From assembly GCF_002000545.1 (NCBI RefSeq), contig NZ_MLHL01000046.1, forward strand, positions 1 through 51,849: a stretch of 51,849 nt of DNA. Direction: 5' to 3'. Positions 5,901 through 51,849 of the stretch are shown here, piece by piece. Both the position numbers and the translations under genes were made by a program. This stretch comes from Rodentibacter trehalosifermentans (lineage in GTDB: Bacteria; Pseudomonadota; Gammaproteobacteria; Enterobacterales; Pasteurellaceae). The notes under the pieces were generated by a model. That model was not told where the DNA came from. It saw only the letters and a list, made by a program, of their open reading frames with translations, and ran no database searches. Position 1 is the first letter of the stretch, and each line of letters begins with the position of its first letter.

Positions 5901-6365
5901 AAAAGAACTAAACAAAATCGCCACAATGGTTAAGGCTTGAATCACACCATTGGCAAGCCCGATGTTTTCCGTGCCGACAATGGATTTAATGATGCTATAT
6001 TTAGCCGGAGAATAGACTGCACTTTGTGCCGCTAAAACCAGTGTTAAAGCAAAAGCAAGGTAAAATTCGCCAATCATATAACTGAGTAAAATTGCCGCTG
6101 AAATACCCACTGCTGCTAAGCTGCTCCAGCGAATCACTTTGGTGCGACAGAATTTATCGTTAATAAATGCCGAAGGCGAAAAAAGGAAAATAAAAGGCAA
6201 TAAAATCATTGCGTTGATTAACGCCGTTAGCACGACTAAAGTATTGCCATCAAAACTTTTCAATAACACATTTTGAATCGTGATTTTATGGGCTAAATCC
6301 ACGCTTGCATTCAAAAAAGCAATAGCCAAATAAGGCAAAAAACCTGCATATTTTAAGAGTTTCAT
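2916..6365 (-). CDS. aas: LplT-Aas fusion: lysophospholipid flippase, acyltransferase and acyl-ACP synthetase
   Basis: A 1149-residue inner-membrane protein with three parts. Residues 1 to about 420 are a 12-segment major facilitator domain of the LplT lysophospholipid-transporter type. Residues about 430-620 are a PlsC-like acyltransferase with the H-x4-D motif (NHISWID, H451 and D456) and FPEGHIS (E521). Residues about 640-1149 are an AMP-forming acyl-ACP synthetase with the [10 protein letters not shown] loop near residue 790 and YKTGDKG near 1027. In E. coli these are two genes, lplT and aas (Aas 719 residues), which re-acylate imported lysophosphatidylethanolamine. Here they are one polypeptide. 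Its ATG overlaps the stop of the upstream MerR-type regulator (ATGA), so the two are co-transcribed and probably co-regulated. An uptake signal lies within the synthetase part near 4084. Confidence 0.9.
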
Positions 6366-7003
6366 TTCACACTCTCCGTTTGATAAATTTTTAGCGTTTG
6401 CATATTTAACACATAAGGTTTCAGCACCAACAGTAAATCAAAAAGGTGTTTGAGTTTTTCGTCTTTTTGGTCACTATCTTTTAGTGCTGATAAGGTGAGG
6501 TTTACTTCTTGTGTGGCAAGGGTTTTCGCCGTTTGCAAATAGGTTTTCACCATTTCACGTTCTGCCGCATTACAACGACAAACAATTGCTAAAATATCCC
6601 GCTCTTTTGCAGTAAAAATACCCTCGCGCGGATTAAGCAATCCCTCATTCACCATAGCTTGCAATTCGGTTTCAGAAATGGAAAATTCTTGGCAAAGATC
6701 TGAGGGAGAAAAAGTTTCATTCTCCGCGCCCATAATAATTCCAATTAATGAAATCAAACTTTCGTAAGGATTTTGCCAGTCAAAATCAGGGTGAGAAAAA
6801 AGTTGTTTAATTTGAGAAATGCTCGCTTGGAAATTGGTTTGCAGATATTTAATAAATGCCAACAATTCCACACAGCGTTCATCATAGAGATGAAAATTCG
6901 GTTTATCTTTTAACGGTTCAGGCAGCAGCCCTTCTTTTACATAATACAATACTGTTGATTTCGGCGTTTGGCTGAGTTTCACCAAATCATTCATTTTTAG
7001 CAT
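6362..7003 (-). CDS. MerR-family transcriptional regulator
   Basis: A 213-residue protein with an N-terminal MerR winged helix (about residues 5-75: LSQTPKSTVLYYVKEGLLPEP) and a helical effector or dimerisation region after it. It lacks the cysteine pattern of metal-sensing MerR proteins, so the signal is unknown. The ATG at 7003 is preferred because GGAGGG lies seven bases upstream; a GTG five codons earlier would place that site inside the gene. Its stop overlaps the start of the LplT-Aas fusion, so control of membrane phospholipid repair is the simplest inference. A 19-base palindrome of MerR-operator shape precedes it (7059-7077), consistent with autoregulation. Confidence 0.85.
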   Translation of the reverse strand: MLKMNDLVKLSQTPKSTVLYYVKEGLLPEPLKDKPNFHLYDERCVELLAFIKYLQTNFQASISQIKQLFSHPDFDWQNPYESLISLIGIIMGAENETFSPSDLCQEFSISETELQAMVNEGLLNPREGIFTAKERDILAIVCRCNAAEREMVKTYLQTAKTLATQEVNLTLSALKDSDQKDEKLKHLFDLLLVLKPYVLNMQTLKIYQTESVK

Positions 7004-7010
7004 AAGATTT

Positions 7011-7034
7011 CCCTCCACAATAAAAAGTGGAGGG
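7011..7034 (-). promoter_or_regulatory. Perfect 8-bp inverted repeat covering the merR ribosome-binding site
   Basis: CCCTCCAC and GTGGAGGG are separated by eight bases. In the transcript the second arm contains the GGAGGG ribosome site of the MerR-type gene, so a hairpin could hide it. It could also be a second protein-binding site. Confidence 0.5.
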
Positions 7035-7050
7035 ATTCTACAATTTTAAA

Positions 7051-7081
7051 ATCAAAAAGTAAAGAGTGTAACTTTACACAA
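7051..7081 (-). promoter_or_regulatory. Putative MerR-type operator/promoter
   Basis: GTAAAG-N7-CTTTAC (7059-7077) is a 19-base palindrome directly after the asnC stop. On the minus strand TTGTGT (7081-7076) and TTTGAT (7056-7051) are 19 bases apart. That is the overlong spacer typical of MerR-activated promoters, with the palindrome filling it. The -10 match is moderate. Confidence 0.5.
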
Positions 7082-7534
7082 TTAAGGTTTAATATCCCTC
7101 AAAATAGGATTTTGCATTGAAATTAGGGTTTCAGTAGATTGAATTTCATCAATTAATTGAATTTTGGTTGCCAAAACAGCATGCAATTCGGCGATGGTGT
7201 GAGTCATCACTTTGATGAAAATGGAATAATTGCCCGTGGTGTAATAGGCTTCTACCACTTCGTCAAAGGTTTCCAATTTTTTAATCACTTTCTCGTAATC
7301 TTTCGCACTTTTTAGGATGATTCCGATAAAACAGCAGACGTCATAACCCAGTTTACGTTCGTCAATAATCACTTTTGTGCCTTCAATCACACCGGATTGA
7401 CGCATTTTTTCTACTCGAACGTGAATCGTACCGGGACTGACACCAAAACTTTTTGCCATTTCCGCATAAGGCGTGCGTGCATCTTTAGTGAGAACACGAA
7501 GAATTTGTTGGTCGAGGCTATCAATATTGTGCAT
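7082..7534 (-). CDS. asnC: AsnC, Lrp-family regulator of asparagine synthesis
   Basis: A 150-residue Lrp/AsnC-family regulator. The N-terminal helix-turn-helix (IDSLDQQILRVLTKDARTPY, then SFGVSPGTIHVRVEKM) is followed by an alpha-beta RAM effector domain. In E. coli AsnC activates the adjacent divergent asnA and responds to asparagine; the gene arrangement here is the same. Start ATG at 7534 with AGGATAA upstream. The assignment rests on length (152 residues in E. coli) and on the asnA neighbour, since Lrp paralogues are otherwise similar. Confidence 0.93.
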   Translation of the reverse strand: MHNIDSLDQQILRVLTKDARTPYAEMAKSFGVSPGTIHVRVEKMRQSGVIEGTKVIIDERKLGYDVCCFIGIILKSAKDYEKVIKKLETFDEVVEAYYTTGNYSIFIKVMTHTIAELHAVLATKIQLIDEIQSTETLISMQNPILRDIKP

Positions 7535-7613
7535 AATTTATCCTGATTTAGAAATAATTTAATAAATAATAATTTAATTAGATAATATTTAAAATTATTT
7601 TAAATGTAAATAA

Positions 7614-7633
7614 ATCACTTGAAAGAAAGTGAT
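7614..7633. promoter_or_regulatory. Inverted repeat in the asnC-asnA divergent region
   Basis: ATCACTT and AAGTGAT are separated by six bases, upstream of asnA and within a very A/T-rich interval. It is a candidate AsnC site or transcript hairpin; I could not match it to a known AsnC consensus. Confidence 0.35.
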
Positions 7634-7689
7634 GATTTGTTAAATAATGCTCAAAATTTTATTTATTCCTTTAAAAACAGGCGGAAAAT

Positions 7690-8682
7690 ATGAAAAAAAC
7701 ATTTATTTTACAGCAGCAAGAGATAAGTTTTGTTAAAAACACCTTCACTCAAAACTTAATCGAACAATTAGGCATTATTGAAGTGCAAGGCCCTATCCTA
7801 AGTGAAGTGGGCAATGGTATGCAAGATAACTTATCCGGTGTTGAGAAAGCCGTTCAAGTACATGTGAAATGTATTCCAAATGCAGTATATGAAGTTGTTC
7901 ACTCTTTATCAAAATGGAAGCGTCATACGCTTGCACGTTTTCATTTTAAAGAAGGAGAGGGGCTTTTTGTTCATATGAAAGCCTTGCGTCCCGATGAAGA
8001 TTCTTTAGATCCAACCCACTCCATTTATGTGGATCAATGGGACTGGGAAAAAGTGATTCCGGAAGGTCGCCGCAACCTTTCATATTTAAAAGAAACCGTT
8101 AATTCGATTTATCGTGCGATTCGTTTAACCGAACTTGCCGTGGAAGCCCGTTTTGATATTCCCTCCATTTTGCCAAAACAAATTACCTTTGTTCACAGCG
8201 AAGATTTGGTAAAACGCTATCCCGACCTTTCCAGTAAAGAGCGGGAAAACGCCATTTGTAAAGAATATGGTGCGGTATTTTTAATTGGTATCGGTGGTAA
8301 ATTATCCGATGGTAAACCACACGATGGGCGTGCGCCGGACTATGATGACTGGACAACTGAATCTGAAAACGGCTACAAAGGGTTAAATGGCGATATTCTC
8401 GTTTGGAACGAACAGCTCAACACTGCGTTTGAGCTGTCTTCTATGGGTATCCGTGTGGATGAAGCGGCACTTCGTTTGCAAGTAGCTTTAGCCGGTAAAG
8501 AAGATTGTTTAAAAATGGATTGGCATCAAGACTTGCTAAATGGGAAATTGCCTCTCTCGATTGGCGGTGGTATTGGTCAGTCACGTATGGCAATGTTCTT
8601 ATTGCGTAAAAAACATATCGGTGAGGTGCAATCAAGCGTGTGGCCGAAAGAAATGTTAGAAAAATATGAGCATATTTTGTAA
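7690..8682 (+). CDS. asnA: Aspartate--ammonia ligase (asparagine synthetase A)
   Basis: A 330-residue ATP-dependent, ammonia-using enzyme that makes asparagine from aspartate; it is related to class II aminoacyl-tRNA synthetases. The length matches E. coli AsnA (330). Recognisable blocks are [23 protein letters not shown] near residue 32, MKALRPDED near 97, and [23 protein letters not shown] near the C-terminus (class II motif 3). A good ribosome site (AGGCGG) precedes the ATG. It is divergent from asnC, its presumed activator. Confidence 0.97.
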
Positions 8683-15382: not shown

Positions 15383-16000
15383 TTATTGGACAAAAATAGG
15401 AGAAAACCAATCATCTAACTTGGCAGCCAGTTTATCAATGCCGATTTTATTTTGGGCAGAAAAGGCTTCCACTTGGATATCACCTTGGAAAGGAAGAATC
15501 GCCTCTCGCACCATTTTGAGCTGTTTGCTTCGGGCGCTTTGGCTTAATTTATCCGCTTTTGTGAGCAAGAGTAAAACCGGTAAATCGGCGGAAACCGCCC
15601 ACTCAATCATTTGTTGATCGAGATCTTTTAGTGGGTGACGAATGTCCATCAACACAACAAGTCCTGCTAAACATTCCCGTTTTTGTAAATATTCACCTAA
15701 GGATTTTTGCCACTGGATTTTCGTTTTTTCCGGTACGGCGGCATAACCGTAACCCGGCAGATCCACCAATTTGCAATGCGGTTCGACCTCAAACAAGTTG
15801 ATAAGCTGAGTACGACCGGGGGTTTTAGAGGTGCGGGCGAGATTTTTTTGATTGGTTAACGCATTAAGTGCCGTGGATTTTCCCGCATTGGAACGCCCTG
15901 CGAAAGCAATTTCAATACCGCTATCCTCCGGAATTGCACGGATATTCGGCGCACTCGTGAGAAAATGGGTTTTGTGATAATTCAATTTAATTTCAGACAT
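15383..16000 (-). CDS. engB: Ribosome-biogenesis GTPase EngB/YsxC
   Basis: A 205-residue TRAFAC GTPase needed for large ribosomal subunit assembly and cell division. The G1 loop GRSNAGKS is at residues 35-42, G3 is [11 protein letters not shown] near 94, and G4 is TKAD near 150. The size matches the family (about 200). Start ATG at 16000 with AAGGAAAAA upstream. It follows its own promoter region and ends at a strong terminator. Confidence 0.95.
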
Positions 16001-16100
16001 AATTTTTCCTTCTATCTATAGTGGCTAAGCATAACATAGATCATAATTTTGCTGAAATTGTGTAAAATAGTTCCACCTAAGAACCGATATCACAATAAAA

Positions 16101-16967
16101 ATGACAACAAAACAACAATATACTTGGATAAAAGCGAATATTATCCACCCCGACCGTCCGGGTCGATCTGATTATTTAAAACGTTTGCGTTACAACTTGC
16201 GTAGCCTTTTGCATTGGTATTGGATCAAAAAATTTGAGATTTTTATTAATCAACATCCTTCGCTTATTCCAATATTTAATGAGCGTGTAAATTACGCCTA
16301 TCCATTAGTATCCCGTTTTTTAGATAAACGCTTTAGTGCATCGCAACGCTTTCAATGTATGTGCGATAACCTTTTGTTTTTACCTGAAAAACTCACCGCA
16401 CTTTCTACGCCATTATGGGAAAAGCCGTTAAGTTTGGGCGAAGTTATTCCTGATTTTGAAATCACTCTTAGTATGACAACACATCAGCCGATGGAGGGGT
16501 ACTGGGTATTGGAACTGTGGCATAAGTCTCAAAATGAATTAGTGTATTTGCTCACTTTTGCCAAACTTAGAGATGCCTTGCTTATTGCTGTTGTGCAAGG
16601 TCCGAATTTTGAGGGTTCAAAAGAAATGGTGAAACACCTGACTAAATCTTGCCATGGCTTACGTCCGGCTTATTTGATGGTGGAAACAATGAAAGCTCTC
16701 ACTAAGATTTTAGGTTTTAAAACATTACTTGGCATTCCGCAAAAATATCAAAATAAATCTCGTTTTATTCAATCAAAAAGCTATACCGTGGATTACGATG
16801 CTATTTTTTCAGAATCAGGCGGACAGCGAAAAAATTATTGGGTTTTGCCTTTGGAAGAAAATAGAAACCTTGATGATATTCCAAGTAAAAAACGCTCAAT
16901 GTATCGAAAACGTTATGCGATGTTGGATGATTTGGCAAAATCTATGACGGAAAAATTAGGACTTTAA
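16101..16967 (+). CDS. VirK/YbjX family protein (DUF535)
   Basis: A 288-residue protein of the VirK/YbjX family, which in enterobacteria is linked to envelope stress resistance and virulence but has no known biochemical activity. The family-typical C-terminal block LGIPQKYQNKSRF and the final KKRSMYRKRYAMLDDL are present. There is no signal peptide or membrane segment. No clear ribosome site precedes the ATG at 16101. An uptake signal lies within the gene near 16393. The gene stands alone, divergent from engB. Confidence 0.8.
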   Translation: MTTKQQYTWIKANIIHPDRPGRSDYLKRLRYNLRSLLHWYWIKKFEIFINQHPSLIPIFNERVNYAYPLVSRFLDKRFSASQRFQCMCDNLLFLPEKLTALSTPLWEKPLSLGEVIPDFEITLSMTTHQPMEGYWVLELWHKSQNELVYLLTFAKLRDALLIAVVQGPNFEGSKEMVKHLTKSCHGLRPAYLMVETMKALTKILGFKTLLGIPQKYQNKSRFIQSKSYTVDYDAIFSESGGQRKNYWVLPLEENRNLDDIPSKKRSMYRKRYAMLDDLAKSMTEKLGL

Positions 16968-16975
16968 GAACAAAA

Positions 16976-17010
16976 AACGCGGTGAAATTTCACCGCACTT
17001 TTGTTTTTTT
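16976..17010 (+). terminator. Terminator after the VirK-like gene, built on an uptake signal
   Basis: A perfect palindrome GCGGTGAAATTTCACCGC (16979-16996) is followed by ACTTTTG and seven T. The right half forms an uptake signal. Confidence 0.85.
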
Positions 17011-17015
17011 AGGGT

Positions 17016-17393
17016 ACTATGTAGCAAATGCACAAAAGTCGTCATTTCAATAAAATATAGCGACATTCTGCGCATATCCGGTTGTAACATATTGCAATAA
17101 TTGAATTTTATAAAGGGGCGCGCAGTGTGTCCCTACAGATAAGCCTAAAATCAAATTTGTGCAACTGCTACATAATTTCGTTTTTTACGGCATTATGTAG
17201 CAGTTGCACAATAGATAATTTTTCGCTCCCTCCTTTTACAGGGAGCGAGGCGGCACCTTAAGGGGAATTGCAACAAAGTTGCAAAAACTCAGTAAAAAGT
17301 AACCGTTCTTTTCCCCCCCTCCGCCTGCGGCACCTCCCCCCGTAAACGGAGGGAGGGAAGATAGCCAATAGTTTTGTGCAAGTGCGACATAAC
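17016..17393. repeat. Two adjacent MITE-like units bounded by 20-bp inverted repeats
   Basis: This gene-free stretch (16968-17428) holds four copies of a 20-base arm. The two inner copies (17157-17176 and 17192-17211) are perfect inverted repeats across 15 bases. The outer copies (17016-17035 and 17374-17393) each match at 17 of 20. The order gives two units with inverted ends, of 161 and 202 bp. Unit two contains further GC-rich hairpins (CGCTCCCT / AGGGAGCG near 17224-17247, and a CCTCCG / CGGAGG region near 17320-17355). No transposase or open frame is present. Confidence 0.7.
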
Positions 17394-43094: not shown

Positions 43095-44177
43095 CTAAAA
43101 ATGAACTCTTAATCCTAAACTGATGACATAATCCGAATTATTTACAAAAGGCTGTTTTGATGATTTTCCTCCGTTATAGCGATATTTTGCCCCCTCAAGA
43201 AATGCGACGACTTGGCGATGTAACTTGTAATCTACGCCTAAAATAATTCCTTTTAATTTTCGTGTAGTGAAGTTTTCTTTACCATTTTTGATTGGTGATT
43301 GTGCTTTCCCCCACAAATAGCCAGCATAAATTTTACTTTTCGGATTAAATTGATATTTGGCAGCAACGAGCCATTCTTCCACTTGACGGAATTGGACATT
43401 GCTTTGTTTGTTTTTGACCTCGACTTTTTGTCCTCGCCAACCAAAACCATATTGTTGATGATAGCGGCGGCGACCGTAATCCAAGCCCACCGAAAAATCG
43501 TGGTAGGTTAATCCTAATCCCAATCCTAATGCCCGCTCGACATTGGTTTCTGATTTCCGTTGACGACTAGCCCCCACTTTCGCATCAATTTTCCAATCTT
43601 GAAAAGTATTATTGAAAAATAGTGCTAAAACATAACCATTGGTGTTCGGTAACGTTTTTACTTGTCCACTTTTATCTACGGTTTGTTTACCGCTTTCACC
43701 AAAAATATAATCTGCTCCGACTTTAAAACCGTAGAACTCCCTTGATGTGAAATGGATGACCTGATCTGCCCGTTTAATCACTTTTTTTACATCAGTTAGG
43801 TTATAGCTGTAATCTGCAGCACTGAGTAAATCACCATTAGTAATTTGTTTACCAAAAGTGAAAGTGCCCAGTGGTTTATATTGAAAACCAGTGTAAAGAT
43901 AGCGAGTGTAGAGAGAACTCCCTGTTTTTTTATCGGTAAAACGCATTTCGACATAACCAAGTGCGGTTAAATTTTCACTCATTTTATGGTTTATCCGCAA
44001 ACGAATGCGTGAGCCATTATCGTCTAAATCGGTGCGTTCGCCTTGTTTATGGTGTAGTTGGAAGCGGAGCGAACCCCCTAAATCAATTCGAGAGCCCTCT
44101 TCTTGATAGATAGGTGCGGCAAAAGAGTAAGGGACAAGAGCTGAAGTGAATAAAAATAAGCCTAATTTTTTCATCAT
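43095..44177 (-). CDS. Outer-membrane general porin
   Basis: A 360-residue Gram-negative porin with a signal peptide (MMKKLGLFLFTSALVPYSFA, about 20 residues). Many amphipathic beta strands follow, as does a C-terminal Phe after LRVH, the barrel-assembly signal. The N-terminal SRIDLGGSLRFQLHHKQ and the GSRIRLRINHKM block are typical of the family that includes Haemophilus OmpP2. It is smaller and divergent in sequence, so it may be a specialised rather than the main porin. AAGG precedes the ATG. It is last in a run of minus-strand genes that includes a periplasmic phosphatase and a PTS, suggesting entry of their substrate. Confidence 0.85.
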   Translation of the reverse strand: MMKKLGLFLFTSALVPYSFAAPIYQEEGSRIDLGGSLRFQLHHKQGERTDLDDNGSRIRLRINHKMSENLTALGYVEMRFTDKKTGSSLYTRYLYTGFQYKPLGTFTFGKQITNGDLLSAADYSYNLTDVKKVIKRADQVIHFTSREFYGFKVGADYIFGESGKQTVDKSGQVKTLPNTNGYVLALFFNNTFQDWKIDAKVGASRQRKSETNVERALGLGLGLTYHDFSVGLDYGRRRYHQQYGFGWRGQKVEVKNKQSNVQFRQVEEWLVAAKYQFNPKSKIYAGYLWGKAQSPIKNGKENFTTRKLKGIILGVDYKLHRQVVAFLEGAKYRYNGGKSSKQPFVNNSDYVISLGLRVHF

Positions 44178-44209
44178 ATTTACCTTATAAAAAGCGTATC
44201 AAATCCCTT

Positions 44210-44231
44210 CCCCGTTTGTTTTTAAACGGGG
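44210..44231. terminator. GC-rich hairpin between the lipoprotein and porin genes
   Basis: CCCCGTTT and AAACGGGG form an 8-bp stem with a 6-base loop. There is no T-run after it on the minus strand, so it may be a weak terminator or a transcript processing or stability hairpin. Confidence 0.35.
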
Positions 44232-44262
44232 AGAGATGATTGAGAAATAGTGAATTTAATGA

Positions 44263-45369
44263 TTATTGGAAACGTTGAAAATCACTGAGCGTGAATAATC
44301 CCATTGAGCGGGCAACATTGACATAAGTATAGAGCGCTTCAATCTGTTTTTTCTCAGCACTTGGTGCGCTCCCACCGCCAACGCCATCAATTTTGAGTGG
44401 ATAGCCCACATAATCAGCGTAACCTTTTAATACGGCGGTAGCTCTTGGGATATGAAGTTGTGTTCCGATACCAAGAACGGTATGCAGGTTATGGTGTTTA
44501 AACAGTTTTACCATACCAATTGCATTTCCCTGGGTATCTCGGGCAATCGGATCAAGTAAGAAACGATTTGGATTTACGCCATTTTCTTTCAGCCATTTTG
44601 CCATCACATCGGATTCTGCATAAGGCGTTTTGACCGGCCCTCCACTTAGTACCAATTTTGCATTTGGATATTTTTCCGCCATTTCTTTGGTTTTTTCTAA
44701 GCGTTGTAATAAGCCCTTTGATGGTGAACCGTCCGGATTGGGTGATTGCCCGAATACGGCAATAGCATCAAATTTCAATTGGGTTTGAGGTTGAGTGGAA
44801 AATGGCTGTTGTAGAATTTTTTCGGTGAAACGGAAAAAATTACGCATCGCCAGTGCCGCTTGTGGTGAACGTTTTTCTAAGGCATTTAAACGTTGATTGA
44901 CTTGTTTTTCATCTTCCAAGGTTCTTGCTGCCAAAATACTGACTGCAAGGGCGTGTAGATCATCCGGTTTACGGCGTAGAATTTGATCTAACTGAGAAAG
45001 GGCTTGACGGTAGTCTTTATTGATGAGATAGGCTTCAGCTTGAAGTCGGTAGGTGTTAAGATAATCGGGTTTTTCTTTCACTTTTTGATCTAAAGAACGA
45101 TAAAGTTTTTGCCATTCCCAGTGGCGGAAAGCTTTTACATCGTCTTTCAAATAAGGATCGTTTTCATAATCTTGAGCATATTTTACAACGAGATGCTCAA
45201 TTGCCTCTCCTCGTCCAGTTTCTTTACCTTTAGGTGCTTCAACGACACTTGATAAAGTAAAACCAAGCGGTGATATATCCTGGGTATTTTGCATACATCC
45301 TGAAAGGGAAAGTGTCCCAATTCCGAATAAAAGTGCGGTAAAAAGTCGGCGGGTTTTAAACATTTTCAT
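44263..45369 (-). CDS. Lipoprotein with C-terminal DUF218 (YdcF/SanA/ElyC-like) domain
   Basis: A 368-residue protein with a lipobox LSGC (C25 after TLSLSG), so it is probably an envelope lipoprotein. Residues about 90-190 are helical and TPR-like (YLNTYRLQAEAYLINKDYRQALSQLDQILRRKPDDLHAL). Residues about 215-345 are DUF218: AVFGQSPNPDGSPS, KLVLSGG and ESDVMAKWLKENGV fit the family, whose members affect cell-envelope integrity; no reaction is established. I chose the ATG at 45369 (AAGGAG upstream). The open frame continues 42 codons further, into the end of the regulator gene, but lacks a signal sequence there. An uptake signal lies near 45332. Confidence 0.8.
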   Translation of the reverse strand: MKMFKTRRLFTALLFGIGTLSLSGCMQNTQDISPLGFTLSSVVEAPKGKETGRGEAIEHLVVKYAQDYENDPYLKDDVKAFRHWEWQKLYRSLDQKVKEKPDYLNTYRLQAEAYLINKDYRQALSQLDQILRRKPDDLHALAVSILAARTLEDEKQVNQRLNALEKRSPQAALAMRNFFRFTEKILQQPFSTQPQTQLKFDAIAVFGQSPNPDGSPSKGLLQRLEKTKEMAEKYPNAKLVLSGGPVKTPYAESDVMAKWLKENGVNPNRFLLDPIARDTQGNAIGMVKLFKHHNLHTVLGIGTQLHIPRATAVLKGYADYVGYPLKIDGVGGGSAPSAEKKQIEALYTYVNVARSMGLFTLSDFQRFQ

Positions 45370-45442
45370 TGATGTCTCCTTAACGATATCAAATTTCAGT
45401 GATAATGAAAGATTATGGTTTAATCTTCTATTAACTATCGCT

Positions 45443-47395
45443 TTAAATGTTGTAATAATCCGGCATAAAAAAGAATTGATAATTAGGATTTTCACTTAAA
45501 CAAAGTTGGCGTAAATCAAGCTGATGACCTGCAATTTGTTTAATAATATTCATCAACATTTTTAGCTTCTGAGTATTCTGGTTAATATTAAGATTAATTA
45601 CCATAAAGATAATTTCACTATGTAAAGTGAAATCTTCACTATCTGAGAAATAGTGGATATCAAACTTTTCTTCTCTCGCCGATAAATTACAGTAAATACC
45701 TATTTTCTGTTTTTTAGATAAAATATCTAAGTAGAGATAGTGTTTGCCTTTTTCTAATTGATTTTGAATAGGAAATATATTGAGTTTATATTCTTTTGGA
45801 ATAAGTTTAGGGGTGATTTTAGGTAAGGTTTTATCATATTGATAGGTATGGTAGAAAATAGTGGAAAGTGAACTCACATATTCATTTTCCTGCATATTAT
45901 CATCAGCGTAATAGATAGGAGAGTAAGGAATATCCATATTTTTTCCATAGCTATTACATAAGTAGTAATCATAATCGAGATTTTTATTTAACTCTAATTC
46001 ATAGAGCATCTTAGTATCAATTTTGAGTATTTCATTACTAAAATAGTTTTTTAAATTAAATTTGATTTGTTGTGTACTTAACCTACCATTAATTGAAATG
46101 ATCGCTAGTTTGAGCTTCTTTTTACTTAACGCTATGCGATTGAAAATACCGGAAAGTATATCGAAAATAAAGTAATTCTCTCGTTGTGAGAATTGATAGT
46201 AATATTTTTGTTTAAATACCTTGTCTAAACGTTCAACAACTTTCAGTAACAAAGGATTAGATTGAATGGTATTCGTATTGTAAAAACCAAGATCCACATC
46301 ATCCGATACGCCAAGTGAAATTTTCACTGTAATTGGAATGAGTAATTTAAACAGATCCTTGAAACCAGTGTGATCCCTTGAAATGTCTACATATAAAATA
46401 GCGGCGATCTCATTAAAAATAAACTGATGAATTTCAGTCGTTTGCTTGATGAGATTGTTGTAATTTTCTTTACTACAATCTGCATAACGATAAAGATCAT
46501 TACTCATAATGAGAACATAAGTGAGAAAACGTATAATCTCCGGAGAGAATAAAAGGGGCATTTTTTCCTGTTTTAGATTTTCACTCAGTTGAGTTAAAAA
46601 TAAATATTCTTTTGTCTTTTTATAATGGAATGGCAAAACAGGGAGATCAATATAATAATCTTTTTGCTGATCGTATTGATGATAAAAATAAATCAGATAC
46701 AACAAAAATCGCTCTGCATAGATGTCAGAAAGCAAAATTTCAGATTGAATTAATGTTTTATTTAATATAAGACGAATTTTTTCTTTTTTAGGATGATTAA
46801 AAAGTTGATTGAATTGAGGTATGAAAAAGTTTGGTTTCGTTTTATAGTTAAAATATTTATACATTCTCACCGTAAGCATGATTTTCTTAAAGGTTGCACC
46901 TTCAATTTTTATACCATAATAAGGTTTGCTCACTAATTTTAGATCATACTTTTCGAGTGTTTTTCTTACTTGATAGAGTTCTTTGCTTAACGAACTGTTA
47001 AAACTTAAAAAGAGAGCTTCTTGTAATTGCTCAATTTTAATATAGTGCTCGCTGGAAAGTAATTGGCGTAGAATATAGTTAACTCTATGTTCAAATTTAT
47101 TATTGATATTAGAAAGTTGTGAGATTTGAAAGTGGGAAAGTAGGGCGTTGGCTAATTCATCTTGTTCGATATGCAATTTATAACCATAAGCCGCTTTAGA
47201 AAAAATAGAAATTTGATATTTTTCTAATGCTTCTTTTAAATATTTAATATCATTTTTTATTGTTCGGCTACTTACTTGTATTTCACTTGATAACTTTTCA
47301 CTGTTGATATGTTGGTTATTTCTTAATAGCAGTAGAAAGATCGCTTTATACCTTTTATTTTTATCTAATATCCTTAAAATTTGACTAATATCCAT
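45443..47395 (-). CDS. Large PRD/Mga-like transcriptional regulator or antiterminator, probably PTS-controlled
   Basis: A 650-residue protein with two N-terminal helix-turn-helix modules (SSEIQVSSRTIKNDIKYLKEAL near residue 36, and a second near 110-170). A long helical central part (about 210-400) has the feel of PTS regulation domains. A region near 415-500 resembles an EIIB-like fold, and the C-terminus is reminiscent of EIIA-2. This order is that of LicR/MtlR-type regulators, whose activity is set by PTS phosphorylation. I could not assign the key PRD histidines with certainty. It sits in the same direction as a mannose-family PTS operon and is its obvious candidate regulator. It is more A/T-rich than its neighbours and has no uptake signal. 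AGGGAA precedes the ATG. Confidence 0.75.
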   Translation of the reverse strand: MDISQILRILDKNKRYKAIFLLLLRNNQHINSEKLSSEIQVSSRTIKNDIKYLKEALEKYQISIFSKAAYGYKLHIEQDELANALLSHFQISQLSNINNKFEHRVNYILRQLLSSEHYIKIEQLQEALFLSFNSSLSKELYQVRKTLEKYDLKLVSKPYYGIKIEGATFKKIMLTVRMYKYFNYKTKPNFFIPQFNQLFNHPKKEKIRLILNKTLIQSEILLSDIYAERFLLYLIYFYHQYDQQKDYYIDLPVLPFHYKKTKEYLFLTQLSENLKQEKMPLLFSPEIIRFLTYVLIMSNDLYRYADCSKENYNNLIKQTTEIHQFIFNEIAAILYVDISRDHTGFKDLFKLLIPITVKISLGVSDDVDLGFYNTNTIQSNPLLLKVVERLDKVFKQKYYYQFSQRENYFIFDILSGIFNRIALSKKKLKLAIISINGRLSTQQIKFNLKNYFSNEILKIDTKMLYELELNKNLDYDYYLCNSYGKNMDIPYSPIYYADDNMQENEYVSSLSTIFYHTYQYDKTLPKITPKLIPKEYKLNIFPIQNQLEKGKHYLYLDILSKKQKIGIYCNLSAREEKFDIHYFSDSEDFTLHSEIIFMVINLNINQNTQKLKMLMNIIKQIAGHQLDLRQLCLSENPNYQFFFMPDYYNI

Positions 47396-47419
47396 TTAAT
47401 TCCCTTTCTTTAATGTATT

Positions 47420-47446
47420 AAGGCTGTCCGAAATAACAGCCTTTAT
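47420..47446. terminator. Hairpin after the acid phosphatase gene
   Basis: AAGGCTGT and ACAGCCTT form an 8-bp stem with an 8-base loop in the 56-base gap before the regulator. T-rich flanks lie on both sides. Confidence 0.6.
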
Positions 47447-47451
47447 TTAAT

Positions 47452-48696
47452 CTAATCAAATGATTGATTTATAATTTCAGTCAATTTTGTTTCAATATCC
47501 GAATATGCACAAAATCCCAGTTCATTTTCTTTGCATTGTTCAAAATGAAGTTGAACGGACTGTGGTGGAGTGGCCAGTGTTAGTGCTTGATCTTGCTGAA
47601 TTTGTTCAATACTTTGATAAACATATTGTGTATTTACCCATTTTGTATTGTTCTTTTTATCCCGCCATATTTCAAAAAAGACTTTCCCTCCAATTGGAGT
47701 CGATTCATACTGATTTGGCAAGCGGTATGATTTTACCCCTAATGCACCGAGTAGGGTAATAATATTAGTATCATGTCCGACCAATAAACTCATTGTTCGT
47801 TGGGAATTGTTCAATTCTTGCTGCATAAATGTGGCTAAGGGTTGGGCAAGGTGGCTTGCGATGAATTTTTCGCCTCGTAACACGGTGAAATATTCATTTT
47901 TAATTTGATTGATGATTTCCCATTTTTCTGGTGTTAATTGGCTAAGCATTTTCGATGAAGTTGGGTTTGCATAGAGTTCAATTAATAAATTATCTACGAT
48001 ACTTTTCCCTAGACGTAATGTTCCCGATACCCCCACTTCTTTTTCTTTTTCCACTTTCAATTTTCCTTCTTCGGAGAAAAAAGCGCAGTCGCTTTTGCCT
48101 TTGCAATGCGGGGATTGGGCATAATCAATCACCTCACTAAGCACTTGATATGCTGTTTGTAATTTTTGATGAGTTTGTTTTAACGGAATGCGGGAAATGA
48201 CCGCTTGTTTGAAGGTTTCGCTATCATTACGCACAATTGGATTAAATACCGGATCCATTGTGCCAAGGGCTCTATTGTTTACCGGCTGAATGCCACAGCC
48301 GGGGAATAGCCCCAATGTTAATGCCTGGCCTGTTGCTAAGGTTCGTTGAAGGCTATTGGTATAAATCAACACTTGTTCAGGTGGTAAACATTGGTTGATT
48401 TTTGTTAAACCTTGTTGATTGAGGTAATCTCGAATATAACGCCCGAATTTAACTTCCAAGTCAGCGCCTTTAGACATTAATTCTCCCGGGGCTTCTTGCC
48501 AAGCCGTCCATTGATAGGGGGTAACTTGTGTGAGTTGACTATCCGATTTGATAATCGGCGTTCTGACACCGTGTCGGCTAAAAATAAAGATTTTTTCCAG
48601 CTGATAGTCGGTTGTTGGCGTAGTATATACAGCGCTTACGGCATAATTTGATAAAAAGCTCATAGCGCAGAGTAGCAAAAGACATGATTTTTTCAT
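47452..48696 (-). CDS. agp: Periplasmic histidine acid phosphatase, glucose-1-phosphatase-like
   Basis: A 414-residue secreted phosphatase with a signal peptide (cleaved near AVSA, residue 22). The catalytic RHGVRTP is at residues 41-47 (nucleophile H42), and the proton-donor HD of GHDTN is at 308-309. The central NSLQRTLATGQ and FPGC...GTMDPVFNP blocks and the C-terminal YESTPIGGKVFFEIW resemble E. coli Agp, which hydrolyses glucose-1-phosphate; the RHG-R-TP form of the active site is more like the phytase AppA. Substrate could thus be glucose-1-phosphate, another sugar phosphate or phytate. GAGG precedes the ATG. It lies directly after the PTS and tyrosine-phosphatase-like genes. Confidence 0.88.
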   Translation of the reverse strand: MKKSCLLLLCAMSFLSNYAVSAVYTTPTTDYQLEKIFIFSRHGVRTPIIKSDSQLTQVTPYQWTAWQEAPGELMSKGADLEVKFGRYIRDYLNQQGLTKINQCLPPEQVLIYTNSLQRTLATGQALTLGLFPGCGIQPVNNRALGTMDPVFNPIVRNDSETFKQAVISRIPLKQTHQKLQTAYQVLSEVIDYAQSPHCKGKSDCAFFSEEGKLKVEKEKEVGVSGTLRLGKSIVDNLLIELYANPTSSKMLSQLTPEKWEIINQIKNEYFTVLRGEKFIASHLAQPLATFMQQELNNSQRTMSLLVGHDTNIITLLGALGVKSYRLPNQYESTPIGGKVFFEIWRDKKNNTKWVNTQYVYQSIEQIQQDQALTLATPPQSVQLHFEQCKENELGFCAYSDIETKLTEIINQSFD

Positions 48697-48778
48697 GTTA
48701 GACCTCAGTTATTGAGTAGTGCGGCATAACGCAAAAATATCGGCAAAATTGACCGCACTTTGAGAAGATATGACCTGA

Positions 48779-49622
48779 TTATTCAAGATAATCTGCTTGT
48801 AATTGAAGAATTTCAGCCTTACTGATACCAAGTTGTTGTTCAGTATAGCGTTGAATTGAACCATATTTCTGTTCAATGGTATCAATCGACATTTCAATGA
48901 ATTCGGGTTTGGTATCAATGAGTGAGTAAAGATAGTTCAATACTTCTTGATCTTGAGTGAGTTGACGGTAAATTGCCATTTTTTGACGATTACGTTCCAA
49001 GCGATTGATATGGGTCAGCATATAATCATCAATAATTTGATTTTTATCGACCCCTAAAACCCCTAGCAATAACATAGCGCCAAAACCGGTGCGATCTTTT
49101 CCCCCTCGACAATGTTGTATAAAAGCCCCCCCCTTTCAGATGAGCGGCAACTTTTAACATTGAAGCAAAAGCCTGTTGACATTCTGGTTTTTCCACAAAA
49201 TTTTTGTATTGTTTCATCACAATATCATCATAATGTACCAAACAACCATTTTGTTTCTGCTCAATAATTTTATTCACCAAATTTTCATTTTCATTTTCTT
49301 TTGATGAGGTGAATTGTGCCGCCAATTCTGCTGTGTGGGCATTGGGATCAAATTGGTAAATTTTCTCTGCCCCTATCACCTTATTGGGATATTTAGCAAT
49401 TTCATTTGGACTGCGATAGTCGATCACTGCCTGAATATTCAGGGGTTTTAGCATTGCTATCCCATTTTCAGTCGCATTGTATAAATGATCGGAACGATAA
49501 AGCCGTTGCCATTTGACTTTTCGGTGATCTTGGGTGAGATAGCCCCCCATATCACGAAAGTTATTCATTCCTTCTATGGGGAGAGTTCGTAATTGGGCTT
49601 GTTGTTGTAAATTTGCCGTCAT
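48779..49622 (-). pseudogene. Tyrosine-phosphatase-like protein (Y_phosphatase3 family), frameshifted at a C8 tract
   Basis: Two overlapping reading frames, 49622 to about 49130 and about 49130 to 48779, together make one cytosolic tyrosine/phosphoinositide phosphatase-like protein of about 280 residues. The first part has the family block GMNNFRDMGGYLT and LYRSDHLYNAT. The join falls in eight C at 49126-49133. With seven, the frame reads LKGGAFIQHCRGGKDRTGFGAM, restoring the CX5R active site (HCRGGKDR). As given, translation runs past into an unrelated tail. It may be phase-variable (OFF), an inactivated gene or a sequencing error in a homopolymer. Its ATG overlaps the stop of the PTS EIID gene, so it belongs to that operon. 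Confidence 0.85.
49126..49133. repeat. Eight-C homopolymer at the phosphatase frameshift
   Basis: A run of eight C on the plus strand (G on the coding strand) sits exactly where the phosphatase reading frame breaks, just before the catalytic HCX5R codons. Confidence 0.9.
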
Positions 49623-50437
49623 TTTACTAATACTCCCAAATAGACAAGGGCAATACAGAGGAGCATTGTGCCAATAATCAGTGTGGCGGCATATTTACCA
49701 TTGGTTTTCTTCAGTATTGAATAAATACCGACCGTGACTAATAGGCTAAACAAACCTGGCATCACTTTATCAAACATTTCTTGGAGTTTGATCGTATTTT
49801 CACCCACACTAAATTCGACACCGAATTTCACCCTTACAACGGAGGCGATGAGTGCGCCGATAACCATTAGCCCCACAACGTTCGCCATATTACTGATACG
49901 TTGCAAAATATTGCTGTTACCGTTAATCATATCCATCCCTTTATGGTAACCATAATGGATACCATAATATTTGGAGGCAACATTGACAATGTTGTAGAGC
50001 AAGAACATTAAAATGGGGCCCAACAGGCTACCGTTGAGTGCGAGTGCTGCACCGATACTGCCACAGATAGGTAACCAAGTGAATTTCAAAATACTATCAC
50101 CCAATCCCGCTAGCGGGCCCATTAAACCGGTTTTTATTGCGGTGACGGTTTCTTTTTCATTTTCTTGAGTAGATTCTTCCACCGCAGCCGCAATACCTAG
50201 AATTAAGGCATCTGAATTGACGTGGCTATTAAAGAATTTTAAATGGCGTTTCATTGCCTCGACTTTCTGCTCTTTAGGTTTATCTTGATAAAGTCGTTTT
50301 AAAACAGGAATAAAACTGGATAGAAAACCGATAGCCTGCATAGATTGATAATTATTGGTGACATTGAGTAACTGCATTCGCCAAAAGACTTTGTTTAAAT
50401 CCTGTTTAGTAATTTTGTGTGAAGTTTGCTGGGTCAT
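49619..50437 (-). CDS. PTS mannose-family transporter, subunit IID
   Basis: A 272-residue membrane subunit of the mannose/fructose/sorbose PTS family (EIID). The start ITKQDLNKVFWRMQLLNVTNNYQSMQAIGFLSSFIPVL and the AIKTGLMGPLAGLGDSILKFTWLPI block are diagnostic, and membrane segments lie in the C-terminal half. With EIIC it forms the sugar channel. Its ATG overlaps the EIIC stop (ATGA), and its stop overlaps the phosphatase-like gene. Confidence 0.95.
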   Translation of the reverse strand: MTQQTSHKITKQDLNKVFWRMQLLNVTNNYQSMQAIGFLSSFIPVLKRLYQDKPKEQKVEAMKRHLKFFNSHVNSDALILGIAAAVEESTQENEKETVTAIKTGLMGPLAGLGDSILKFTWLPICGSIGAALALNGSLLGPILMFLLYNIVNVASKYYGIHYGYHKGMDMINGNSNILQRISNMANVVGLMVIGALIASVVRVKFGVEFSVGENTIKLQEMFDKVMPGLFSLLVTVGIYSILKKTNGKYAATLIIGTMLLCIALVYLGVLVK

Positions 50438-51204
50438 AGATCATAGTCCTCATCATTCGTATTTTGATTGGAAGCTACCGTTTGAGTATTTTTATGAATG
50501 GCTAAGTCATAAATTAGGGCTAACGGTAAGGCAATTAGGGTGATCGGTAAGACGGATAATTTAAGATAAACGGCAAGCGTGAAACCTGCGACTAAGAAGA
50601 GCCAGAGTTCTGCTTTTTTCAACATCATTAACATAAGTAAACCAATACCGATAGCGGGAATGATTTTGCCGGCAACATTCAAACCGGTAATCATTTTACC
50701 CGGTAATTGCGCCACGATTTGTGCGATTAAATCCGCACCGAAATAGACAGCTAAAAAGGTCGGCACAGCACGAATTAAGAAAGCGATTATCATCGGAATA
50801 TATTGGATCCGAAAAATTTTATCGAAATTTCCTTCTTCAGCCCAACGCTCTGCAATCGGGTTGAGGGCTACAATACCTGAGCGATATAAAATCAAAAGTT
50901 GCTGAGCAAGTAATGAAGTTGGAACAGCAAGGGCAATCGCCGCTTCTGTGCCTCCTGCGGCAATACCTAATGCCGTACCAATTGCAGTACCGGAAATCAT
51001 ATCCGGTGCGGAATAGGCACCAACATTCCCTACCCCCATCCACATCACTTCTAAGGTTGCGCCAATTAAAAGTGCGGTCTGTAAGTCACCCATAATTAAG
51101 CCGACAACTGTTGCGATCAAAAGTGGTCGTCTAATCATTTGCGTACCGATATCATCAATCGCACAAATGCCTGACCATAATGCAACGAAAAGTGCAGTTA
51201 TCAT
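50434..51204 (-). CDS. PTS mannose-family transporter, subunit IIC
   Basis: A 256-residue polytopic membrane subunit (EIIC-Man/Sor). MITALFVALWSGICAIDDIGTQMIRRPLL and LIGATLEVMWMGVGNVGAYSAPDMISGTAIGTALG are the family signature. It forms the translocation pathway with EIID. It overlaps both neighbours by four bases. The sugar transported cannot be told from sequence alone. An uptake signal lies within it (51069). Confidence 0.95.
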   Translation of the reverse strand: MITALFVALWSGICAIDDIGTQMIRRPLLIATVVGLIMGDLQTALLIGATLEVMWMGVGNVGAYSAPDMISGTAIGTALGIAAGGTEAAIALAVPTSLLAQQLLILYRSGIVALNPIAERWAEEGNFDKIFRIQYIPMIIAFLIRAVPTFLAVYFGADLIAQIVAQLPGKMITGLNVAGKIIPAIGIGLLMLMMLKKAELWLFLVAGFTLAVYLKLSVLPITLIALPLALIYDLAIHKNTQTVASNQNTNDEDYDL

Positions 51205-51671
51205 TTAATCACCTCCGTTAAGTTTACTTTTTCATCATTGGGTACCATTTGAATGGTCACCGTCACCCCTTTATCCAAAAGTTGTTGAAAAGCCGAACGC
51301 TCTTCGTTAGTCACAGATAAAGCTTTCGTTAATTGGGTTCTCCCCTCTTGAAAACGCATTCCGCCAACATTTAGTTCATTAATAGGAACGCCTGCATTGA
51401 CAGTTGATAACACATCAATACTGTTAGTGAAGAGCAACATTGTGCGTCTGCTGAGGCCCTTAGTTCGATAAATTTCTGCAAATTTCTCAATTGTCAGTAC
51501 AACGACTTTAATTCCCTGAGGGGCAGCCATAGCTAAAATATTTTTTTGAGTTTGATCGGTCGCTAATTTATCGTTTAGCACCACAATTTGTTCTACTTTG
51601 AATAGATTGACCCAAGTGGTAACGACTTGTCCGTGAATTAAGCGATCATCAATGCGACTAAAGCAAATCAT
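51201..51671 (-). CDS. PTS mannose-family transporter, subunit IIB
   Basis: A 156-residue cytosolic phosphocarrier (EIIB-Man/Sor). RIDDRLIHGQVVTTWV carries the phosphorylated His (H13). It takes phosphate from EIIA and gives it to the incoming sugar. The ATG at 51671 has AGGAGG eight bases upstream; an open frame nine codons longer would start inside the EIIA coding end without a ribosome site. It overlaps the EIIC start. Confidence 0.95.
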   Translation of the reverse strand: MICFSRIDDRLIHGQVVTTWVNLFKVEQIVVLNDKLATDQTQKNILAMAAPQGIKVVVLTIEKFAEIYRTKGLSRRTMLLFTNSIDVLSTVNAGVPINELNVGGMRFQEGRTQLTKALSVTNEERSAFQQLLDKGVTVTIQMVPNDEKVNLTEVIK

Positions 51672-51849
51672 CTTCGTCCTCCTTTTTTTGTAAATCATTG
51701 AAATCTCGAATAGTTAATCCGTTTTGATAGGCTGTTTGAATAAGTGATTTCATTTCACCAAATGGTAAATCACGATTCATTAGTACATCGAGTAATAGGG
51801 GTAAGTTTAATCCGCAACAGACTAAAATATTTGGGGCTGAAGTAGATTA
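51658..51849 (-). pseudogene. C-terminal part of PTS EIIA (mannose family), running off the window
   Basis: In the frame that ends at the TAG at 51660-51658, overlapping the EIIB start, the minus strand reads STSAPNILVCCGLNLPLLLD, then VLMNRDLPFGEM and so on. It matches the end of EIIA-Man proteins (compare GVNIPMLVETLMARD in ManX). The last three window bases on this strand are an in-frame TAA just before the first Ser. Either the gene is interrupted there by a stop or frameshift, or the window edge has an error; the phosphorylated His region lies beyond the window. Confidence 0.6.

Follow-up and report, generated by a model that had tools for sequence, protein, structure and literature searches.

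The enzymes encoded in PTS operons usually use up the imported sugar phosphate. In Enterococcus faecalis, the gene of the maltose-6'-phosphate phosphatase MapP follows the maltose PTS gene MalT, as outlined in PMC3737437. The locus described here resembles this pair, in which the gene after the PTS gene encodes a phosphatase that takes off the PTS-added phosphate, a function that linkage suggests for our phosphatase. According to the same outline, MapP belongs to the endonuclease/exonuclease/phosphatase family and MalT is an EIICBA protein, whereas our locus combines a PTP-fold phosphatase with a mannose-family EIIABCD (PMC3737437). Mannose-family EII genes in Gram-negative bacteria are also on record, since a manO-associated PTS of Gilliamella and other Orbales has been traced to Firmicutes by horizontal transfer (PMC5090037). 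That system differs from ours in its association with manO, and the word phosphatase is absent from its description (PMC5090037); its mannose use depends on mannose-6-phosphate isomerase. Among proteins with a DUF218 domain, SanA needs a Thr-His-Glu triad, and SanA and ElyC are described as predicted inner-membrane anchored proteins tied to peptidoglycan or ECA (summarized in PMC12176290).

The window that we analysed is the whole of contig NZ_MLHL01000046.1 of Rodentibacter trehalosifermentans (51,849 nucleotides), so the sequence upstream of the partial EIIA gene is lost. Its relevant features are these:

51658..51849, minus strand: 3' part of the EIIA gene of a mannose-family PTS; the frame matches the C-terminal part of the full EIIA ORFs of relatives
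51201..51671, minus strand: EIIB (PF03830, E 1.2e-49; likely start ATG 51671)
50434..51204, minus strand: EIIC (PF03609, E 3.1e-64)
49619..50437, minus strand: EIID (PF03613, E 1e-87)
48779..49622, minus strand: Y_phosphatase3 cytosolic phosphatase gene, frame broken (PF13350 in both pieces)
47452..48696, minus strand: secreted histidine acid phosphatase, Agp-like (His_Phos_2, PF00328; signal peptide judged by eye)
45443..47395, minus strand: regulator (Pfam HTH_11 and Mga; Mga/AtxA-like according to structure model m6e4e76097f68)
45613..45632, no strand: second candidate operator TTTCACTATGTAAAGTGAAA, within the regulator gene at its 3' end
44263..45369, minus strand: DUF218 lipoprotein (PF02698, E 2.8e-15, 56.9 bits against a cut-off of 27.6)
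43095..44177, minus strand: outer-membrane porin (Porin_4, E 1.2e-24)

Families were assigned by Pfam matches, and subfamily scores were judged by NCBIfam cut-offs. As an earlier note on this DNA had stated, every gene from 51849 to 43095 lies on one strand, here the minus strand, and 4-base overlaps join EIIB to EIIC (51204/51201), EIIC to EIID (50437/50434) and EIID to the phosphatase (49622/49619). Its reading of a mannose-family PTS is borne out by EIIB, EIIC and EIID together, all above the Pfam cut-offs, and the porin that it named is present. The partial EIIA gene, which precedes and overlaps EIIB, is truncated by the contig end; three relatives (L068, L071 and L073) have a full-length EIIA ORF. 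Against the NCBIfam substrate classes (mannose, GalNAc, galactosamine and sorbose), EIIC scores best with AgaW, at 188.3 against a cut-off of 300, and the matches of EIIB and EIID likewise fall below cut-off. We therefore dropped a substrate assignment from EIIC, since no NCBIfam cut-off was reached and no catabolic gene recurs among the neighbours. A search for a terminator fold in the gap between the phosphatase gene and agp returned a stem with z -1.46, and 18 of 200 shuffles were equally good. Direct repeats, sought at both ends of the island, gave nothing convincing.

The cytosolic phosphatase of the earlier note exists as a gene with PF13350, but its frame is not intact in this genome. 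The N-terminal ORF (49622-49044) is in one frame and the C-terminal ORF (49075-48779) in another; PF13350 is above cut-off in each, and the CX5R active site HCRGGKDRTG is encoded outside the frame of the N-terminal piece. The frame change coincides with a G run (49126-49133) that is the longest G/C run of the window, and the frame is open in seven relatives. The break is either a sequencing error or a real lesion, so in this genome the gene is either mis-sequenced or dispensable.

The block is truly inherited as a unit. It occurs in eight of 140 Pasteurellaceae genomes, seven Rodentibacter and one Mannheimia, with EIIC identity of at least 82% (own genome counted). The genes for EIIC, phosphatase, regulator and DUF218 are found in the identical eight genomes, a coincidence beyond chance, although these genomes are related and do not represent independent events. 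In six of eight Rodentibacter non-carriers, the flanking genes are adjacent at a block-free site. Conservation of the whole block, which the earlier note had proposed to check, holds for the PTS, phosphatase, regulator and DUF218 genes together but not for agp, which is intact in five of the eight. In Bacillota, the order EIIA-EIIB-EIIC-EIID-phosphatase-regulator is kept in 15 of 15 loci, and the Pasteurellaceae have the same six-gene order, usually with agp inserted. Across 18 loci (these 15 and three of Gilliamella/Zophobihabitans), the phosphatase is found in 18, cassette genes in 14-15 and other clusters in at most six, and no sugar-phosphate-using enzyme recurs among them. PTS genes adjoin the phosphatase in all 25 loci of the set that includes these 15; over 29 loci, the phosphatase is linked to PTS genes in every one and to this regulator in 22. 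Judging from the sequences compared, the constant partner of the PTS genes is the cytosolic phosphatase. In a tree of EIIB, EIIC, EIID and the phosphatase, Rodentibacter joins Mannheimia with a support of 82, and the deeper nodes with Bacillota, at 36 and 46, do not resolve donor and direction. Plasmid records with an EIIC relative (287) and phage records with a phosphatase relative (13) are all below 60% identity. We recognized no description of the cassette among the matches listed in a literature search of titles and abstract beginnings.

The motif HCRGGKDRTG is found in all 29 phosphatases of the compared PTS-linked loci. When six hand-picked records of 160 plasmid records are added as a contrast group, one of the six being PTS-linked, it is found in 30 of 30 PTS-linked phosphatases and in none of the five relatives without PTS neighbours, a pattern that may reflect kinship alone because the copies were found by mutual similarity. 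PDB 8dhi, a PTP-fold match, likewise has no such motif. Phosphatases with HCRGGKDRTG also stand beside a second PTS superfamily, PTS_EIIC (PF02378). Three Gilliamella/Zophobihabitans loci combine the phosphatase with PF02378 and lactose/cellobiose-type EIIA and EIIB (by Pfam on one locus), and in Lactobacillus ultunensis the phosphatase gene overlaps an EIIC gene of this superfamily by 4 bases. Most Bacillota phosphatases have an N-terminal extension, which is missing from the Rodentibacter copies.

With moderate confidence, we favour a self-contained, horizontally moving, inducible PTS with a dedicated phosphatase that dephosphorylates the imported sugar phosphate, and with optional additions at the surface. 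The EII proteins would bring in a sugar and phosphorylate it. The cytosolic phosphatase, by its linkage, would strip the phosphate again like MapP, and the freed sugar would enter a pathway unable to use the phosphorylated form. The regulator, through its predicted PRD/EII-like domains, might control the operon at the 20-bp palindrome that precedes EIIA. The surface-anchored DUF218 protein, where present, may release or prepare the substrate outside the cytoplasm. In addition, the Agp-like phosphatase in Pasteurellaceae and the porin in Rodentibacter would add a second, optional entry route. Two points tell against this reading: the PTP fold is better known from enzymes acting on protein or lipid phosphate, and the phosphatase frame is broken in this genome.

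The earlier note described the regulator as PRD-type. The structure model of the protein suggests PRD-like domains, but Pfam finds no PRD and recognizes the HTH/Mga part alone. The PRD-like and EIIB-like parts come from the model, whose matches have TM-scores of 0.22-0.38; it also points to another HTH, to helical domains like PRDs and to C-terminal domains resembling those of EII proteins. Foldseek returned seven matches at E<=0.001, all from the Mga/AtxA/MgaSpn/AcpB group and including 3sqn, 4r6i and 5way; with these low TM-scores (by query length) and high rmsd (9.6-16.8), the domains fit better than the whole protein. A search of the solved-structure sequences with an alignment of the regulator gave 0 matches. 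The regulator is like this group in its Foldseek matches and its Mga HTH by Pfam, and differs in being local to one PTS operon. The G+C content of its gene is about 27-32%. All 22 loci examined have a palindrome, TTNCAC-N8-GTGNAA, at 52-114 bp before the EIIA match. It keeps 8-10 of 10 core bases, the core having been defined after the sequences had been inspected. In the window, TTNCACN8GTGNAA is matched with 0 mismatches at a single site, TTTCACTATGTAAAGTGAAA. This site precedes the start of the DUF218 gene by about 250 bp and may be incidental, since it lies within coding sequence.

The earlier note placed a coupling of Agp and PTS at the centre of the locus: Agp would split a sugar phosphate in the periplasm, and the PTS would re-phosphorylate the glucose or other sugar on entry. 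In the form weighed here, the substrate is a sugar 1-phosphate that the porin would admit. The secreted protein does resemble Agp. Its best solved relatives are 6rmr and 1nt4 (381 residues aligned), the active-site motifs RHGVRTP and HD (GHDTNI) are kept, and so is the Glu that aligns with chain position 196 in E. coli Agp, used here as a mark of this enzyme. However, its score against NF007553 (395.5 bits) is under the Agp equivalog cut-off of 425. In E. coli, agp is not known to belong to a PTS operon. In Pasteurellaceae, agp usually stands between phosphatase and regulator and lies intact within the block in five of eight carriers, which together with the kept catalytic residues speaks for the coupling. 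Against it, Rodentibacter genomosp. 1 has lost agp by a clean deletion whose flanks are 100% identical, and the Mannheimia copy, although within the block, is interrupted by a stop codon. No copy was found in R. mrazii, but there the assembly breaks within the block: one contig stops behind the phosphatase gene, and the end of the regulator gene lies on a different one. In Bacillota, agp is absent from the cassette flanks in 15 of 15 loci, fetched up to 10 kb per side and shorter in L084, L096 and L101. Given its absence from these fetched flanks, feeding of the PTS by Agp cannot be the core function of the cassette, and we dropped the idea that Agp is central to it. The coupling would also leave the cytosolic phosphatase unexplained, and we consider it unlikely to be the point of the locus. 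As far as gene content tells, the Agp-like phosphatase is a local, optional and sometimes lost addition to the cassette.

The DUF218 lipoprotein of the earlier note stands, with its start moved downstream. The most likely start is ATG 45369 or 45363 and not GTG 45495, which puts an LSGC lipobox, recognized by eye, in the usual place. The model (m7b6b32af3bda) predicts a TPR-like helical region followed by a Rossmann-like DUF218 domain. The protein shares this domain with SanA, ElyC and YdcF, and YdcF (3ca8) ranks 17 among the fold matches (E 0.01). Invariant Thr, His and Glu also occur in the DUF218 proteins of the loci compared and may, by residue type, correspond to the triad reported for SanA (PMC12176290). 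Unlike SanA and ElyC as described there, these proteins have a predicted TPR-like region ahead of the domain and are anchored as a lipoprotein in Rodentibacter, by LPXTG in Streptococcus and by autotransporter fusion in Mannheimia. DUF218 had been treated as a mere extra, but in Pasteurellaceae it is steadier than Agp (8/8 carriers), and it recurs in Streptococcus, where it and EIIC occur in the same three of 247 genomes. As 12 of the 15 Bacillota loci lack it, the cassette cannot require it. The porin adjoins the cassette in Rodentibacter; as it was not found in the Mannheimia locus, we rejected it as part of the core.

Alternatively, the cytosolic phosphatase might be regulatory and reset the switch by dephosphorylating EII proteins, HPr or the local regulator on its PRD/EII-like domains. 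The PTP fold, the linkage to PTS genes throughout and to the regulator in most loci, and a sigma-54/PRD regulator next to the Gilliamella PTS are all consistent with such a role. However, PTS phosphorylation falls on His and Cys, not Tyr. In addition, three loci of a further family in the same order have no nearby homologue of this regulator, and the L. ultunensis copy adjoins a gene annotated as MurR/RpiR, a family that to our knowledge has no PRDs. We judge a regulatory phosphatase improbable. We consider it very unlikely that the locus is an ordinary mannose-family PTS operon with unrelated passengers, in which no function is common to phosphatase, DUF218, Agp and porin. Gram-negative bacteria are on record as having received such a PTS from Firmicutes (outlined in PMC5090037), and agp and DUF218 are gained and lost among the loci, but PTS genes adjoin the phosphatase in all 25 loci of the set named above, DUF218 is found in three lineages with three anchors, and the palindrome recurs with the cassette.

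Our preferred reading remains a mobile PTS that carries its own sugar-phosphate phosphatase. Since the phosphatase is the one constant enzyme partner of the PTS, the cassette suggests a reversal of the usual operon logic, for which MapP is a known precedent. More tentatively, HCRGGKDRTG could mark PTP-fold sugar-phosphate phosphatases that are dedicated to the PTS and form a class of their own, serving two unrelated PTS superfamilies, to which some lineages possibly add a sugar-releasing surface DUF218 protein with three types of anchor. If this is true, a job would be assigned to a subgroup of the so-called tyrosine phosphatases, and DUF218 would gain an extracellular role in sugar acquisition. 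The conserved palindrome is a testable candidate binding site for a Mga/AtxA-like regulator, and the DUF218 part puts a domain of unknown function within reach of a simple growth assay.

In the window, the block from the porin to EIIA (43095-51849) is truncated within EIIA, where the contig ends, and reads as follows.

51849-51658, minus strand: EIIA, terminal part, gene truncated by the contig end
Following EIIA in this order, all minus strand: EIIB, EIIC, EIID, Y_phosphatase3 gene, Agp-like secreted phosphatase, regulator, DUF218 lipoprotein, porin

The window is one entire contig of a 2.59-Mb genome in 122 contigs. The 4-base overlaps that the earlier note had described from EIIB through EIIC and EIID to the phosphatase are borne out. 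The frame of the cytosolic phosphatase (PF13350) is broken here into two pieces in two frames (49044-49622 and 48779-49075), and no G/C run in the window is longer than the one at the break. The cause would be a sequencing error or else a genuine lesion; the gene is intact in seven related genomes. The earlier note had overlooked this break and the truncation of EIIA. The G+C content of the regulator gene is 27-32% in 1-kb windows, against 37.5-43% in its surroundings. The block holds four of the 36 copies in the window of AAGTGCGGT, which we take to be the uptake signal of the Pasteurellaceae group (chance expectation for the whole window, 0.35). Because of these four copies, the block has probably been resident in hosts of this group for a time.

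EIIC relatives (E 1e-10) are common in Pasteurellaceae (119 of 140 genomes surveyed, own included), and copies of at least 82% identity occur in only eight, namely seven genomes of Rodentibacter and Mannheimia haemolytica DSM 10531. Strong DUF218 matches (E < 1e-195) pick out precisely these eight carriers, six further genomes with weak partial matches bringing the count to 14 of 140. PF13350 is full length in seven carriers and split in the window's genome, and reaches 23 of 140 genomes when weak partial matches are counted. The regulator is strong in seven of the eight, among them Rodentibacter sp. Ppn85, where it is split into two pieces on two contigs; in R. mrazii the match covers a fragment of 59 residues beside a contig end. 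Three additional genomes with weak matches raise the total to 11 of 140. The block lies between a FAD oxidase gene and asnC-asnA in R. caecimuris and R. genomosp. 1, and these flanks are adjacent in six of the eight block-less Rodentibacter genomes (apart in G129 and G130). Since the flanks enclose the block in the two carriers and meet directly in the six block-less genomes, the porin-to-EIIA stretch appears from these comparisons to have been gained or lost as one unit. Among the other five carriers, R. mrazii and Ppn85 have the two flanks on separate contigs, R. heidelbergensis the asnC side only, the window the oxidase side only and R. rarus neither. In the window, asnC and asnA (7082-8682) are not next to the block as they are in several relatives; this genome has been rearranged. 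The porin gene of R. genomosp. 1 (L073:13191-14271) matches in two overlapping pieces, which suggests a frame change.

The earlier note had looked to conservation of the whole block. What is conserved in the eight carriers is the PTS, phosphatase, regulator and DUF218 gene, which travel together, whereas agp is intact in only five. Agp relatives (E 1e-20) are found in 48 of the 140 genomes: the block's own agp in five at 89-100% identity, the Mannheimia copy (L074:7500-8800) at 46% with one internal in-frame stop 3' of the HD motif, and copies of only 33-41% in the remaining 42. A second histidine acid phosphatase of the window's genome (L077, contig C121, 740-1945) has 36% identity to the block's Agp. 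In R. genomosp. 1, agp is deleted from just past its first codons, which the scar keeps (L073:9837-9979), to just short of the regulator, and the flanks of 141 and 33 bp are 100% identical to R. caecimuris. R. mrazii has a contig break at the expected place, and no agp copy was found elsewhere in its genome.

Searching with the phosphatase alignment through two peptide patterns, active site not included, gave 25 loci: six Rodentibacter, one Mannheimia, 15 Bacillota (Listeria kieliensis, Enterococcus, Oceanobacillus, Tetragenococcus, Streptococcus, Isobaculum, Hungatella) and three Gilliamella/Zophobihabitans. The order EIIA-EIIB-EIIC-EIID-phosphatase-regulator is kept in 15/15 Bacillota loci; EIIB to EIID are 59-80% identical there and the regulator 38-44%. 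The EIIC of Tetragenococcus halophilus comes in two pieces, and additional ORFs, transposase-like by eye (L089:8468-9828), precede the phosphatase, so that this cassette looks damaged. In Streptococcus suis (L091), a fusion of a LacI-type HTH and an extracellular solute-binding-protein domain (Pfam; 5113-7143) lies immediately 5' of EIIA, and a recombinase-like ORF (by eye; 15789-17018) 3' of the cassette suggests an integrated island. No agp was found in the fetched flanks of the 15 loci (up to 10 kb per side, shortened by contig ends in L084, L096 and L101). The proposal that periplasmic Agp frees sugar for the PTS, and that this coupling is the point of the locus, is thus unlikely; Agp belongs to the Pasteurellaceae version as an accessory; the cassette does not need it, and it is plausibly a second sugar source.

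The candidate operator also spans both phyla. A palindrome with core TTNCAC-N8-GTGNAA, defined post hoc from the sequences, lies 5' of EIIA in 22/22 loci, which are non-independent in including related species (15 Bacillota, six Rodentibacter, one Mannheimia). At least 9 of 10 core bases match in 21 loci and 8 of 10 in Mannheimia; single-base shuffles of 300-bp stretches reached at least 9 of 10 in 55 of 6600. Its distance to where the EIIA match begins, at the gene start or a few codons into the gene, is 52-114 bp. Five of the six Rodentibacter genomes having the stretch carry exactly TTGCACGATATATCGTGCAA, R. rarus being one base off; the window stops short of the site. Another core match without mismatch, at 45613-45632 in the 3' end of the regulator gene, has near-identical counterparts in four other Rodentibacter loci, and because it is coding sequence we claim no function for it. 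With the regulator model (15 sequences, pLDDT 81.8, pTM 0.69), Foldseek gave seven matches at E <= 0.001, all of Mga/AtxA/AcpB type (3sqn, 4r6i, 5way, 9atx; TM 0.22-0.38 by query length), LicT PRDs ranking lower (E 0.06).

Strong DUF218 matches coincide with the cassette in 8/8 Pasteurellaceae and in 3/3 among 247 Streptococcus genomes, two of the three being nearly one strain (EIIC 770/771 bases) and hence fewer independent cases. DUF218 and the cassette are linked in L090, L091, L101 and L141; DUF218 is missing from the other 12 Bacillota loci, with genome-wide weak matches in two and none in ten. The Rodentibacter proteins carry a lipobox, those of S. suis and S. danieliae an LPXTG-like C-terminus (by eye), and Mannheimia has two tandem genes (L074:1975-5253), one fused to an Autotransporter barrel (PF03797). 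In S. danieliae the gene is divided between two overlapping frames (L101:10597-12458). The DUF218 model (six sequences, pLDDT 81.8) combines a TPR-like region and a Rossmann-like domain; its two fold matches at E <= 0.001 are O-GlcNAc-transferase-like proteins with TPRs (TM 0.37-0.39, rmsd > 9), and YdcF ranks 17. All that we conclude is that the protein is located outside the cytoplasm and is possibly an enzyme.

The phosphatase has PTS partners of more than one kind. In the three Gilliamella/Zophobihabitans loci it follows lactose/cellobiose-type PTS genes, and in a Lactobacillus ultunensis plasmid record it overlaps a PTS_EIIC gene by 4 bases. In an order-wide search (394 genomes), 20 had EIIC at E 1e-40: three Rodentibacter, 12 of family f27, perhaps Orbaceae, and five weaker. 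Three of the 12 f27 genomes were fetched and carry mannose-family EII genes and the phosphatase; the cassette's regulator is absent in these three loci. The active-site motif is HCRGGKDRTG in 30/30 PTS-linked copies read, five relatives lacking PTS neighbours have HCTGGKDRTG, HCAQGKDRTG, HCTSGKGRTG, HCTAGKDRTG and HCAVGKDRTG, and PDB 8dhi has HCTAGKDRTG. This signature is a lead to the substrate rather than proof, because the contrast set is six plasmid records hand-picked from 160, one of which is PTS-linked, and the 30 copies are closer kin to each other.

A regulatory role, in which the cytosolic phosphatase would act on PTS or regulator proteins, seems to us as unlikely as the Agp-centred proposal. 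That the same phosphatase type is found next to two PTS superfamilies favours, without proving it, the PTS product as its substrate rather than a single protein target. The PTS would import and phosphorylate a sugar, and its partner would then dephosphorylate the imported sugar phosphate. The same logic is reported for MapP, like the cassette enzyme a phosphatase partner of a PTS, as cited in PMC3737437. Because the phosphatase is the sole conserved enzyme partner of the PTS operon, our analysis suggests, with about even confidence, that these bacteria dephosphorylate the sugar phosphate that the PTS delivers.
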